Source of the DNA: an uncultured Atopobiaceae bacterium
GTDB lineage: Bacteria > Actinomycetota > Coriobacteriia > Coriobacteriales > Atopobiaceae
Length of the DNA: 62,380 nt
Reading direction: 5' to 3'
Assembly: GCA_947625235.1 (NCBI GenBank)
Contig: CANQNP010000003.1
Coordinates: 1 to 62,380 of the forward strand
The translations under genes and the position numbers were made by a program. Positions 16,626 to 49,416 of the stretch are shown here, in pieces; the first letter of the stretch is position 1; each line of letters opens with the position of its first letter. A model generated the notes under the pieces. The model was not told the DNA's origin, ran no database searches, and saw nothing but the letters and a program-made list of their open reading frames with translations.

Positions 16626-18374
16626 CTAGAGGCCCCAGGCGACGAACCACACCACGAAACCCGAGGCCACGAAGGCGATGAGGAGCACGCCCTCGCACGC
16701 GAGGAGGAGCGATCGGGCGCGTGCGTGCTCGCCGAGCCACCACGTGCGCGGCCGCTTCGCGAGCGCCTCGTGCGAACCCTCGAGGCCGAGCGCGCCGCGA
16801 GCACGCGGGCCGAGATGCCGCGCGAGGAAGCGCATCTCGCGAATCGCATCGCCATCGAGCACGAGGCCGAGGATGAGCGGCAGGAACATGAGGTAGTAGC
16901 GCACTTGCATGCCGTTGATGAAGGTGACGCCCACCTCGTTGTAGCTCACGTAGAGCGCCGTGAGGAGCGCCCCGAAGGCGACGACGAAGCCCGAGATGGC
17001 GACCACGCGAAGCTGGCGTCCGCGCCGCGTGCTCGCCCAGGCGTCCGCCTCCGCGCGATCGGCCATGGTCGTCCACGCGAGGAGCAGGAGCTCGCCCGCC
17101 GCGATCACGGGCCCGAGGACGGGCCACGGCAGGTAGCAGAGGTTCACCGGGAGCTCGATGAAGATGCGCACCGGGTTCAGGTAGCTCGCCGTCGTGGTCG
17201 CGAGGCCGAGCGCGTAGTGCCAGGGCTCGCGGACCATGAGCGCGAGCTGCTCCGCGGGGTGCACGTTCGTCGTGGACTGCGTGTCCACGTTCGAGGCGCC
17301 GTTTGAGGACACGAAGGGCGCGAGGAAGCCCCATACGAGGTACGCGAGCATCCCGAGCCACGCCACGCGCCAGAGCCACGCGTTCCTTCGGCTTCGGAAC
17401 TTTCGGGCGGGCAGGCACAAGAAGACGAGCCCCCAGGGGAAGAGGATCGCCTTCACCGAGGTGGAGAGGTAGAAGGGCACGATCATCCAGAGCGCGCCCG
17501 AGATGCCGATCGTCTCGTCGGGCCTTTGGAGGCAGCCGATGAGGCTCGTCGTGGCGATGGCGGCGAAGCCCACCGTCCAGGGGTCGTAGCTCCAGTTCGC
17601 CGCGATGAAGAGCTGCGTGGGCAGGAGGGCGATCACGAGGAAGAGCCACTTGCCCGCCACGAGCCGGCGCATCGCGATCCAGGCGAGCACGCACCAGAGC
17701 GCGTAGTTCGCGATCCTGCCGAGGGCGTAGGTCCCAAGGAGCGGCAACCCCAGCGCGCGACCGAGCGCGAGCCCGCCCGCCATCGGGAGGCGCGCCACGA
17801 GCCCCATGCCGCCCATGCCCACGGCCTCTTCATCGTCTCCCAGGCGCGTGAGGCCCTCGAGGGTGATGCGCGCGCCCGAGGCCTCGGCTTCCTCCAGCGC
17901 CTCCACCTGCCTCTGAAGCCCCTCCTCGGAGAGCGAGAGCCGCCAGTTCGGGTGCCAGTCGTCATCGGAAGTGCCGAAGGGGATGAGTCCCACCTCGTAG
18001 ATGCCGTCGCGATCGTTCATGAGCCGATCGGCGCCGGAATAGGTGGCGTTTCCGCCCTGGGCGAGCACGAGCGAGCTCGAGAAGTGAGTCTGGCCGTCCC
18101 ACGAGACGGAGGCGATCGGCGGCATGAAGGCGACGAGCACGACGCCCATTGGCACGAGGAAGAACCAGAGCGCCGCCTCCGGACTCGCCACGAGCCGCTC
18201 GCGAAGCCAGAGGAAGGTCCACACCGCGCACGCCACGACACCGAGGAAGAGCTGGAAGCGCCAGGACGCGGGCCAGATGAGCCAGCCCACGAGCCAGCCC
18301 ACGAGCGCGAGCGCCGCTGAGCCAAGCGGCCCCGCGGCCACGCGCGCCAAGGTGGTCTTGTGCCCACTGCCCAT
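16626..18374 (-). CDS. DUF2142 family polytopic membrane protein
   Basis: A 582-residue membrane protein with roughly twelve hydrophobic segments. The first outside loop carries SVSWDGQTHF, and a later helix pair contains LLPTQLFIAANWSYDPW; both resemble DUF2142 proteins, which have a GT-C-like architecture and often sit in surface-glycan loci. A large loop rich in Glu and Ala lies at about residues 130-200. The ATG at 18374 is preferred over one at 18455 because it lies just before the first helix, though its ribosome site (GGGGCGAG) is weak. It is alone, upstream of the repeat mosaic and close to the rhamnose locus. A role in glycan transfer is inference. Confidence 0.8.
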   Translation of the reverse strand: MGSGHKTTLARVAAGPLGSAALALVGWLVGWLIWPASWRFQLFLGVVACAVWTFLWLRERLVASPEAALWFFLVPMGVVLVAFMPPIASVSWDGQTHFSSSLVLAQGGNATYSGADRLMNDRDGIYEVGLIPFGTSDDDWHPNWRLSLSEEGLQRQVEALEEAEASGARITLEGLTRLGDDEEAVGMGGMGLVARLPMAGGLALGRALGLPLLGTYALGRIANYALWCVLAWIAMRRLVAGKWLFLVIALLPTQLFIAANWSYDPWTVGFAAIATTSLIGCLQRPDETIGISGALWMIVPFYLSTSVKAILFPWGLVFLCLPARKFRSRRNAWLWRVAWLGMLAYLVWGFLAPFVSSNGASNVDTQSTTNVHPAEQLALMVREPWHYALGLATTTASYLNPVRIFIELPVNLCYLPWPVLGPVIAAGELLLLAWTTMADRAEADAWASTRRGRQLRVVAISGFVVAFGALLTALYVSYNEVGVTFINGMQVRYYLMFLPLILGLVLDGDAIREMRFLARHLGPRARGALGLEGSHEALAKRPRTWWLGEHARARSLLLACEGVLLIAFVASGFVVWFVAWGL

Positions 18375-18605
18375 CTCGCCCCATCGCCATGCCCGTTTCG
18401 ACCATTGTGACGCAAGCCGCCTGCTGCCCTCGGGGGGCAGTCCGCCGCATCCCAAGATTGCGCAGATGGCCTGCGGGCGTGCGCCATCTGCGCCCCCGCG
18501 TCGAGCGGGGCCTTGCGGCGCACGAGACCCTTCCGCGGGTGTGCGTGCGGTGCATGCGATCGTCGCTCAGCGGCTTATGGTGTACGCGGCCATGCCACGG
18601 GAGGG

Positions 18606-18756
18606 CTTGCGGTGCATCCCGTGGCACGGGTGGCCTTCGGGTGTGGCGACACGGGGCCAAAACGCCCGATTTCGCATGGTTTCGCACACCCTAAGCGCCT
18701 GTCTGGCACCTCTCGCTACACCCGAAGCGATCCCGTGCCACGGGATGCACCGCAAG
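18606..18756. repeat. Large inverted repeat inside a second repeat mosaic (about 18500-18860)
   Basis: Arms 18606-18644 and 18718-18756 are 39 bases each, match at 35 positions when one is reverse-complemented, and enclose a 73-base loop. The core is CCGTGCCACGGGATGCACC. Shorter related units (CACCGCAAGCGC, GCGGTGCAT) continue on both sides, from about 18500 to 18860. The block fills most of the 680-base gap between the DUF2142 start and the RiPP precursor and can form a long hairpin. I see no gene in the gap; the open frames across it only translate the repeats. Confidence 0.75.
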
Positions 18757-18992
18757 GGAGCCCGCGCCGCGGTTCCGCGCACCGCAAGCGCATCCGTGCC
18801 ATGGCGCTCCACCGCAAGCGCCCCTGCGCCATATGGCAACACCGCAGGGATGCCAGTGCGAGCGCCGCCTGGATAGGGAGCGATGCGCCATTCGCGTGGG
18901 ACGCGCGTGTGCACGAAAGGCGGGTGAGGATGCCCGCGTGCCTTCGCGTGCGCGCGTGGGCGGCCCGTCAACGCGGTCGCGTCGAAGATGGG

Positions 18993-18998
18993 GATAAT
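18993..18998 (+). promoter_or_regulatory. Candidate -10 element (GATAAT) of the RiPP precursor gene
   Basis: GATAAT matches the consensus at five of six bases, 57 bases before the precursor ATG and outside the repeat block. No good -35 hexamer is present, which could mean an activator is needed. Confidence 0.4.
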
Positions 18999-19006
18999 GG
19001 CCCCTA

Positions 19007-19034
19007 CGCATGCCCATCGGCGTCGGCGCATGCG
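19007..19034 (+). promoter_or_regulatory. Hairpin in the predicted 5' leader of the RiPP precursor
   Basis: CGCATGC and GCATGCG form a perfect seven-base stem, with two further G-C pairs possible inside. It ends about nine bases before the GAAGGGAA ribosome site and could influence translation. Confidence 0.35.
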
Positions 19035-19054
19035 ATCGATCGAAGGGAACGACC

Positions 19055-19441
19055 ATGGACGAGAAGATGACGAAGTTCTACGAGGCGTTGTCGGCTGACG
19101 AGGAGCTGCGAGCAGAACTCGTGCGTCTCACCGATAGCGTGGTCGTCGAGGGCGTCACCGAGGAGGAGGCCCGCCATCTCGTGGCCGAAGTCGTCGCCGT
19201 CTTCGCCGTCGAGCATGGCTTCGACCTCTCCCAGGAGGACATCCTCGCGGCGCGCTCGGACGCCGAGAGCGAGCTCTCCGAGGCCGAGCTCGCGGCGGTG
19301 GCGGGCGGAGGCGGCGCGAGCATCTGCTTCTGCGTCATCATCGGGGCCCTCAAGGGCTGCGGCTGCTTCTTCATGGGCGGGGACAATAGCGAGAATATGG
19401 GCGTCATCTGCGCGTTCGGCGGAGGCGGCATCGGCGACTAG
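19055..19441 (+). CDS. Nif11-type RiPP precursor with double-glycine leader and Cys-rich core
   Basis: A 128-residue protein. Residues 1-70 (KFYEALSADEELRAELVRL, then EHGFDLSQEDILA) match the Nif11-like leader pattern used by many ribosomally made, modified peptides. ELSEAELAAVAGG at 73-85 is a textbook double-glycine processing site. The predicted core (about residues 86-128) is hydrophobic and Gly-rich, with five Cys at 91, 93, 102, 104 and 119 arranged as CFC, CGC and a lone Cys, only two Ser and no Thr. The ATG at 19055 follows GAAGGGAA. I find no LanM, YcaO, radical SAM or peptidase-ABC gene within the window, so it is an orphan here. Cys-based chemistry or disulfides are more likely than Ser/Thr-Cys thioether rings, but this is inference. 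Confidence 0.85.
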   Translation: MDEKMTKFYEALSADEELRAELVRLTDSVVVEGVTEEEARHLVAEVVAVFAVEHGFDLSQEDILAARSDAESELSEAELAAVAGGGGASICFCVIIGALKGCGCFFMGGDNSENMGVICAFGGGGIGD

Positions 19442-19472
19442 GAGCTATTCCCGAGACACCAACTACGTTGAA

Positions 19473-19570
19473 CCGCCTGGCAAGGCCCCAGTTGGCCGTG
19501 GTCTTCGGCCGTCTGGACCGCAGCCATGCGGAAAGCGCACAAGCGGCTCAAGGCCTAAGCCTTGAGCCGC
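19473..19570 (+). ncRNA. Structured intergenic RNA element, copy A
   Basis: It begins 31 bases after the RiPP precursor stop. The order is a conserved CCGCNTGGCAAGGCC block, an 11-position stem (19488-19498 with 19506-19516) around the loop TGGTCTT, a conserved ACCGCAG, and a perfect 12-bp hairpin (GCGGCTCAAGGC with GCCTTGAGCCGC, loop CTAA). Copy B at 40159-40255 has the same order and element lengths with compensatory base changes. No T run follows the last hairpin. It may be a regulatory leader for rmlD, a 3' element or a mobile repeat. The orientation is assumed from the flanking genes. The remaining 160 bases to rmlD hold no other clear feature. Confidence 0.65.
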
Positions 19571-19733
19571 CACAGTGTTGGTTGTGATGCGAGAGGCGAC
19601 GGGCCTCCCACAGCGCTCCGGAAAAGAGCCAGTCCAGATACGAGCGAGGGCCCAAAGCGCAGGGCCAAGGATTGGCGAGGCAACAGGCCTGATACCATAC
19701 GAGCGTCATGTCCCCTGCGGCGACGGAGGCACG

Positions 19734-20663
19734 GTGAGGCTGCTCATCACGGGTGCGAAGGGCCAGCTTGGCGAAGAGCTCACGCGCGTGCTGCGCACGG
19801 GCCGGGCGGACATCGCGCCGGTGAACGCGCGCTGGACCGACGTCGAGTTCCTTCGCACGGACGTGGCGGCGGACGGGTCCACCGAGACGCTCGCGCTCGA
19901 CATCACGGATGCCGCCGCGGTGGATGCCTTCCTCGCCGAGCACGCGATCGATTGGGTGGTGAACTGCGCGGCGGCCACGAACGTGGACGGTTGCGAGGCG
20001 AATCCGGACCTCGCGCGGCGCCTGAACGCCGACGGTCCCGCGAACCTTGCGCGCGCGTGCGAGGCGTTTGGCACGCGGCTCCTCCACGTCTCGACGGACT
20101 ACGTGCTCGCGGGCGACGACCCGCTTCCGCAGGCGGAAGACGCCGAGCCCAACCCCAAGACCGTCTACGGCAAGACGAAGCTCGAGGGCGAGCGCCTCGT
20201 GGCCGCCCTCGCGCCGAGCAGCGTCATCGTGCGCACGGCCTGGCTCTACGCAAGCCACGGCAAGAACTTCGTCTTCACGATGAGCCGCCTCGGCCGCGAG
20301 CATGAGAGCGTGCGCGTGGTGGACGACCAGCACGGAAGCCCCACGAACGCGAACGACCTCGCCTGGGAGATCCTCGAGATCATGGCCTGGGCGGACGAGG
20401 TGGGAGACGAGGCCTCCGGCATCTGGCACGCCACGGGTGCCGGCACCACCACCTGGGACGCCTTCGCGAGGAAGATCTTCGAGCTCGAGGGGCTCACCTC
20501 AGAGGTGAGAGGCGTCTCCACCGAGGAGTGGGGCGCGCCCGCGCCGCGCCCGGCGTGGTCGGTGCTCGACAATCGACGCCTTCGGGAGACGATCGGCGAT
20601 GCGATGCGTCCCTGGGAAGAGGCGCTCGCGTCATTTGTGGCCGAGGAGGGCCTCGGCGCCTGA
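19734..20663 (+). CDS. rmlD: dTDP-4-dehydrorhamnose reductase
   Basis: A 309-residue NAD(P)H-dependent reductase that makes dTDP-L-rhamnose in the last step of the pathway. LLITGAKGQLGEEL is the nucleotide-binding loop, NCAAATNVDGCE is the family's substrate-side motif, STDYVLAG carries the catalytic Thr region, and YGKTKLEGE is the YxxxK catalytic pair. The GTG at 19734 is chosen because GGAGG sits four bases upstream and the protein then starts at the first strand. It opens the rhamnose-glycan locus and is followed by rmlB. A weak promoter (TTGGCG at 19672, TACCAT at 19693, spacing only 15) lies in the gap. Confidence 0.95.
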   Translation: MRLLITGAKGQLGEELTRVLRTGRADIAPVNARWTDVEFLRTDVAADGSTETLALDITDAAAVDAFLAEHAIDWVVNCAAATNVDGCEANPDLARRLNADGPANLARACEAFGTRLLHVSTDYVLAGDDPLPQAEDAEPNPKTVYGKTKLEGERLVAALAPSSVIVRTAWLYASHGKNFVFTMSRLGREHESVRVVDDQHGSPTNANDLAWEILEIMAWADEVGDEASGIWHATGAGTTTWDAFARKIFELEGLTSEVRGVSTEEWGAPAPRPAWSVLDNRRLRETIGDAMRPWEEALASFVAEEGLGA

Positions 20664-40158: not shown

Positions 40159-40255
40159 CCGCATGGCAAGGCCTCGGATGCGCGCGCTCTTCGCGCGTCC
40201 GCACCGCAGTCCATGTGAAGAGCTCAAAGCAGCTCAGGGCATGCGCCTTGAGCTG
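40159..40255 (+). ncRNA. Structured intergenic RNA element, copy B
   Basis: Homologous to 19473-19570. CCGCATGGCAAGGCC is followed by an 11-position stem around the loop CGCTCTT (40174-40184 with 40192-40202), then ACCGCAG, then a terminal hairpin CAGCTCAGGGC/GCCTTGAGCTG with loop ATGC. The two copies have equal element lengths through ACCGCAG, but stem bases differ in paired fashion (for example G-C to C-G and C-G to G-C next to each other). It begins six bases after the rsmA stop and ends 24 bases before the tatD start, so it would lie in the tatD leader if transcribed forwards. Confidence 0.65.
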
Positions 40256-42353: not shown

Positions 42354-42660
42354 GGTCCCTTGCCAGGTCTGTGGTTGCGGGCGGGTCGGGCGCGAGCCTT
42401 CCCGTCCAAGTCCATGGCAGACGAGGCCCAACGGACCCACGTAAATCCGGGTGCGCGCATCCGGATGATCACGGCTCGTTCTAGACGTAAGTCGCACCTC
42501 CCTTCGCGAGAGGGACGCCGTTCCTCGGGGAGAGAGGACCAACCGTGGGGGCGCCGCGGCGCCCGAAGCGACGGTCCCGGTGCGCGGGTGTGGGGTCGAA
42601 GACCAGGTCAGCTGGGAAGGGGCTCTCGCTCGGCGGCGCCAGCTGGCGCCCGCCCGAGCG
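42354..42660 (+). ncRNA. Long structured leader or non-coding RNA upstream of a solute-binding lipoprotein
   Basis: This 350-base gap lacks a convincing gene but folds strongly on inspection. GGGTCC (about 42354) can pair with GGACCC (about 42433). Inside, TGCCA pairs with TGGCA and a GC helix closes on a GCGA tetraloop. Further on, ACCGT...ACGGT encloses a GGCGCC hairpin (42537-42575), then GGTCGAAGACC forms a small hairpin. Finally GCTCGG...CCGAGC (42628-42660) encloses the 16-base palindrome GGCGCCAGCTGGCGCC. The last hairpin lies about 20 bases before the ribosome site and could be an attenuator or sequestrator. It does not match riboswitch, SRP, RNase P or tmRNA signatures I know. Confidence 0.4.
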
Positions 42661-49340: not shown

Positions 49341-49416
49341 GCCAGCTTAGCTCAGTCGGTAGAGCACCGCTCTCGTAAAGCGGGGGTCATCAGTTCGAGT
49401 CTGATAGCTGGCTCCA
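49341..49416 (+). tRNA. tRNA-Thr (anticodon CGT)
   Basis: A complete 76-base cloverleaf with a seven-pair acceptor stem (GCCAGCT/AGCTGGC), D arm AGCTCAGTCGGTAGAGC, anticodon loop CTCGTAA, T arm with TTCGAGT and an encoded CCA. It ends the upstream transcript just before a strong terminator. Confidence 0.97.

Follow-up and report, generated by a model that had tools for sequence, protein, structure and literature searches.

A small open reading frame in the window (the whole stretch of 62,380 nucleotides analysed here, from an uncultured Atopobiaceae bacterium) raises two questions: (i) whether it encodes the precursor of a RiPP; and (ii) which proteins could modify, cleave and export a product whose gene stands apart from any recognisable enzyme. 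The sequence-only reading had noted that no modification enzyme or peptidase transporter lies nearby, and our searches agree, the window contig (C3) having no C39, radical SAM, LanC or YcaO match. The comparisons below use the draft genome that contains the window (G000; 1.73 Mb in 148 contigs, 91% complete) and its congeners.

The window gene encodes a Nif11-type precursor

The features of the gene are collected in Table 1. Its product scores 36.6 bits against the NCBIfam leader model TIGR03798 (leader_Nif11; cut-off 32.3), which bears out the Nif11-like leader proposed earlier, while the Pfam Nif11 model PF07862 alone stays below its own cut-off (19.3 against 23.8 bits); a paralogue at C80:1869 reaches 30.8 bits with the latter. 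The proposed double-glycine cleavage site corresponds to residues 84-85, and G84-G85 is invariant in homologues (13 and 25 aligned sequences). The core that follows has the composition first described: its 43 residues include five Cys and two Ser, and Thr is absent. An AlphaFold model built with 25 related sequences gives a confidently helical leader (pLDDT ~90-96 for residues 1-60) and a core without structure (pLDDT <50 for residues 84-128), as expected for a precursor. The profile match, the GG site in homologues and a core conserved among relatives were the three points on which the RiPP reading had been staked; all three were found, and they confirm, at the level of sequence, that the window gene is a Nif11-type RiPP precursor.

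Table 1. Features of the precursor gene and its flanks, in window coordinates
Feature	Position	Strand	Basis or remark
Distal operator box CACGAAAG, first of direct-repeat pair	18912..18919	+	Paralogue comparison
-10 box ATAAT, predicted	18994..18998	+	76 bp after distal box; 77/78 in paralogues
Ribosome-binding site AAGGGAA	19043..19049	+	Sequence upstream of ATG 19055
Precursor ORF, 128 aa	ATG 19055-19057 to TAG 19439-19441	+	
Nif11-type leader, residues 1-85, ending ELSEAELAAVAGG	19055..19309	+	TIGR03798, paralogue alignment, predicted helical domain
Core peptide, residues 86-128, GGASICFCVIIGALKGCGCFFMGGDNSENMGVICAFGGGGIGD	19310..19438	+	Family motif CxC-x8-CxC...C
Dispersed ~107-bp two-hairpin repeat	19464..19574		Many copies in G000, G011, G014

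A dispersed family of precursors

The gene had been called an orphan, and it is not one. A search of G000 with the window precursor gives 15 matching places, itself included (E 4e-79 to 5e-4), so the reading frame is not a chance one. Thirteen of these have a close leader, with a mean column identity of 58% in alignment, and two are divergent Nif11 types; TIGR03798 matches 12 of the 13 close paralogues at E<=1e-3. The search for further Nif11 precursors that had been proposed thus revealed a family, and the exporter of G000 and the maturase linkage in relatives, described below, likewise speak against the orphan label. With the divergent types counted in, the congeners have 11 (G011), 7 (G012), 15 (G013) and 6 (G014) matches. 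The named relatives are Atopobiaceae and Eggerthellaceae MAGs with the sample label 'Lapin', which we read as rabbit gut. A literature search, whose coverage leaves out most subscription journals, found no description of this dispersed precursor family.

The alignment of the 13 paralogues defines a core motif, GG-x-C-x-C-[VIF]-x-x-G-A-x-K-G-C-x-C...C, of which the CxC-x8-CxC part is present in most paralogues and the five Cys are kept in most family members. Between orthologous pairs, pN/pS is 0.20 for the leader and 0.24 for the core, the latter value being biased low because the pairs were picked by core similarity. The orthologous cores are under purifying selection.

A shared promoter and operator

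Positions 18350-19800 gave nothing in a simple scan for sigma-70 promoters and terminators, and the promoter signature was derived from comparison of the paralogues. Most of these have an upstream ATAAT -10 box, usually 34-38 bases ahead of the start codon, preceded by two CRYGAAWG direct repeats that are 21 bp apart and lie 77 and 56 bp from the -10 box; AAAGGAA or a similar sequence is the ribosome-binding site of most of them, at the position seen in the window gene. Family members without the operator are mostly the second genes of tandem pairs. The window gene retains the -10 box and one clean operator box, the distal one; the other box, 21 bp further along, is degenerate (CCCGCGTG), and the gene's 5′ leader is longer than in the paralogues.

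The paired repeat, with at most one mismatch, was sought in 443 kb of sequence from six genomes, made up of individual loci that had been picked mostly for holding precursors or exporter genes. The scan gave 34 sites with duplicates and 30 distinct ones, against 0-2 sites in six order-2 random sequences and none in the reversed sequence. Eighteen of the 30 were assigned automatically to precursors, and a further six precede a family precursor, two Nif11 peptides, a GG peptide, the maturase operon of G012 and the exporter operon of G013 (here with a shorter spacer to the -10 box); the remaining six have no assigned gene. The DNA therefore suggests that precursors, maturases and exporter would be regulated together.

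The 21-bp spacing of the repeats is that used by LytTR regulators, and for this reason a LytTR-type response regulator is suggested as the partner of the operator. Direct repeats in pairs, with a spacing of about 21 bp, are also found in class II bacteriocin regulons under LytTR control, for example that of plantaricin PlnC/D. The family studied here resembles these regulons in having many peptide operons under such pairs, set at a fixed distance from the -10 box, and differs from them in the sequence of the box.

The same operator also precedes a Cys-free Nif11 peptide, NIFSDIWSGIKKGFDDLGDTLSKVGQDIYGGVKKLLKK (contig C67; loci L028 6380-6718 and L151 9755-10096), which looks like an unmodified helical bacteriocin.

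A cleaving exporter

The C39-peptidase ABC genes that the sequence-only reading proposed to look for across the genome do occur: two C39 transporters were found in G000. The one on contig C104 matches TIGR03796 with 911.7 bits (cut-off 853.3). The partner gene is cut by the end of that contig, and the rest of it lies on C56 (common sequence KIKLAGAEKRGFS), where this part of the exporter adjoins a sister precursor. The gene order is identical in G013, where it lies on a single contig and TIGR03797 is matched with 728.5 bits (cut-off 709.4). The HlyD-like model TIGR03794 gives 35 bits in G000 against a cut-off of 156.2, the gene being cut by the contig end. Judged by the TIGR03796 and TIGR03797 matches and by gene order, the C104/C56 genes are an NHLM-type C39-peptidase ABC exporter. 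The second transporter, on C90 (L043), is probably a binning contaminant, having a Bacteroidetes-like neighbour and codon use to match. Between exporter and precursor, G013 has a gene for a SpoIIE-type phosphatase with a hydrophobic N-terminal stretch (L148 10112-12025), which is a possible regulator of the peptide system.

Radical SAM maturases in relatives

Candidates for the modifying enzymes come from G013, a congener with a better assembly than G000. On its contig C9, two radical SAM/SPASM genes in tandem, encoding 474 and 466 aa, lie 16 bp downstream of a precursor gene whose core is DCICPVIGAANGCGCFFYG. G011 has an orthologous pair (the first gene 92% identical), as does G012 (74%), and homologues were found in G015. 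A maturase is encoded together with a precursor in G013, in G011 and in distant relatives; beside the maturase operon of G012 no precursor was recognised. Homologous radical SAM genes lie near Nif11 precursors, several with CxC-repeat cores, at another 14 loci, in Synergistales, Lachnospiraceae, Clostridiales, Subdoligranulum, Olsenella and others. Gene neighbourhood, then, ties the CxC family to radical SAM maturases.

The maturases have the CxxxCxxC motif, the SPASM cysteines and a predicted beta-rich/helical N-terminal domain of the peptide recognition-element type. In a fold search the nearest solved structures are those of two RiPP maturases, SkfB and SuiB. Sactipeptide, ranthipeptide and related maturases (SkfB, SuiB, PapB; TIGR04103 rSAM_nif11_3) share with the present pair the CxxxCxxC motif and SPASM region, an N-terminal domain of the recognition type and Cys-rich substrates; the present pair differs from the SkfB/SuiB type in its low identity (14-18%) and falls far under every NCBIfam equivalog cut-off. 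The modification would most likely consist of thioether cross-links from the CxC cysteines.

Two further kinds of Nif11 peptide were seen in these comparisons. Precursors at L067, L069, L072 and L094 (from Synergistales, an Atopobiaceae genome, Subdoligranulum and a same-family genome) have three CxC-repeat motifs in the core, and radical SAM homologues adjoin the first three. A divergent Nif11 peptide, GGMGLPGDQCSLFGAEDEPMILWY, has a core nearly identical in G000 and G013 (L022 8169-10031, L150 8241-10100), its own radical SAM protein without the first SPASM cysteines, and the common operator upstream.

Modification enzymes in the genome of the window

The earlier proposal to search the full genome for LanM, YcaO and radical SAM genes leads to a mixed result. 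Neither LanC (PF05147) nor YcaO (PF02624) gives a match in G000, and control genomes did give matches with both. Taken with the two Ser and no Thr of the core, this upholds the view that a conventional lanthipeptide is unlikely. The maturase pair is absent from the G000 assembly (91% complete), in which there are only two divergent homologues, one of them lacking the first SPASM cysteines. The remaining radical SAM genes of G000 are mostly, by our reading of their sequences, of housekeeping types (MiaB, MtaB, RimO, RlmN, HemN and NrdG-like).

The gene order in G013 offers a possible reason. There, malG is followed by malQ, malK, the precursor and both maturases, the precursor lying ~3 kb further on, whereas the G000 contig C94 (4515 bases) stops just after malG. 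Because C94 ends before the place of the maturases in G013, their absence from G000 cannot be concluded, and the maturase locus may well lie in the missing part of the genome. On the far side of the locus, contig C89 of G000 keeps one flanking gene and has otherwise different neighbours, which points to some rearrangement at that flank.

Proposed pathway and alternatives

The reading that we favour, with a probability of about 0.68, is that some 15 dispersed Nif11 precursors are served in trans by radical SAM maturases and a cleaving exporter, under a common promoter switch. The two tandem maturases would bind the leader through their N-terminal peptide-recognition domain and modify the Cys-rich core, the NHLM-type exporter would cut after GG and secrete the core, and the promoter with its two CRYGAAWG repeats would switch precursors, maturases and exporter together. 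A distant enzyme acting in trans had been one of two options offered at the outset, and the linkage of maturases to the family elsewhere makes it the probable one. Points against the favoured reading are that the maturase pair is missing from the G000 assembly and that only one precursor of the genus was seen right beside the maturases. A stronger form, a radical SAM counterpart of the prochlorosins, is held more tentatively, at somewhat short of even odds: two promiscuous maturases would act in trans on at least 12 dispersed and individually conserved CxC precursors, one operator would switch the whole set, and a mixture of cross-linked peptides would be released together in the gut.

The other option offered at the outset, a peptide held by disulfides, belongs to a wider scenario in which the peptides are exported and cut without enzymatic modification, as GG-leader bacteriocins or signals with free or disulfide-paired Cys. 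This scenario is unlikely but not negligible. In its favour, the G000 assembly has the exporter and lacks the dedicated maturase pair, and the Cys-free peptide on C67, amphipathic, cationic and under the same operator, resembles a plain helical peptide. Against it, most cores carry an odd number of Cys (five), family members of several phyla have radical SAM genes beside them, and the operator itself precedes one maturase operon. It is quite improbable that another class of enzyme (a multinuclear iron oxidase, a flavoprotein or a glycosyltransferase) modifies the CxC motifs, possibly to give a metal-binding peptide; such motifs would fit metal binding, but no gene of this kind was recognised beside any precursor read, whereas radical SAM genes recur.

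Hardly any weight falls on a lanthionine or thiazole/oxazole peptide whose LanM or YcaO is missing from the draft. Elsewhere, LanM and YcaO enzymes do take substrates with Nif11 leaders (PMC2887384, PMC10783134); against this stand the negative searches of G000 with positive controls, the lack of any such gene recognised near relatives, and the few hydroxyl residues (two Ser, no Thr) of the core. It is also very improbable that the window reading frame is a relic without function. The locus is unstable, with a remnant containing an internal stop in G014 and no precursor in G012 and G011, but the frame in the window is intact and has kept its leader, GG site, core motif, -10 box and one operator box.

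Among known systems, the favoured pathway of radical SAM maturases acting in trans comes closest to that of the prochlorosins and synechococsins, in which a single promiscuous LanM, ProcM or SyncM, modifies peptides with a Nif11 leader (PMC10783134). The leader, the GG site, the scattered precursors with a common leader and the few common enzymes that would act in trans are alike. The prochlorosins differ in having LanM and hypervariable cores; here no LanM/LanC synthetase was found, the CxC-x8-CxC pattern is conserved, and there are radical SAM maturases and a repeat operator. Haft and co-workers tie NHLM exporters to Nif11 and NHLP leaders and name Eggerthella lenta (PMC2887384). In the curated models such systems combine TIGR03798 with TIGR03794/03796/03797, and the leader family (TIGR03798) and cleaving exporter (TIGR03796, and TIGR03797 in G013) described here agree with them; the enzymes linked to the leaders in that paper are YcaO and LanM, with radical SAM not mentioned, whereas here they are radical SAM proteins. 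We therefore regard the system as one of a known kind, a Nif11 RiPP with dispersed precursors, set apart by its link to radical SAM maturases and by the common operator.

RiPP discovery relies on the proximity of precursor and enzyme, and most of this family would consequently pass as orphans; a common operator provides a way to gather the scattered parts of such a pathway. No curated model covers the linked maturase family, whose CxC-repeat substrates recur in several phyla. If the maturases act on all members, the family would be a natural experiment on how much substrate variation radical SAM peptide enzymes tolerate, and in a gut setting secreted peptide cocktails could shape competition.

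Turnover and repeats around the gene

The flanking genes of the window precursor are conserved in congeners and the precursor is not. In G012 the flanking genes are separated by 110 bp, the G011 locus has no match to the precursor, and the G014 remnant starts exactly at the leader/core junction and has its stop within the core. These comparisons indicate that precursor genes come and go.

The sequence-only reading had found the company of the gene, a repeat mosaic before it and a structured RNA after it, unusual. Both proved to be dispersed repeats, and the company is ordinary. The 3′ element folds well (z -5.35); it was rejected as a structured RNA of the gene, recurring as it does at many sites, and Rfam found nothing at the precursor locus. 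This ~107-bp repeat, whose second stem is perfect and GC-rich, has another window copy at 40159-40253. Upstream, the ~190-bp repeat at 18570-18798 is likewise dispersed, G013 and G014 also having copies, and the mosaic contains an inverted partial copy of it. A ~33-bp element (L149 15121-15153), present at more than 12 places in G000 at ~90%, is another interspersed repeat of the genus. Elsewhere in the window there are a tRNA at 49341-49413 and, at 42358-42620 on the plus strand, a conserved structured RNA, raiA (Rfam RF03072, 134.6 bits, cut-off 101.3).
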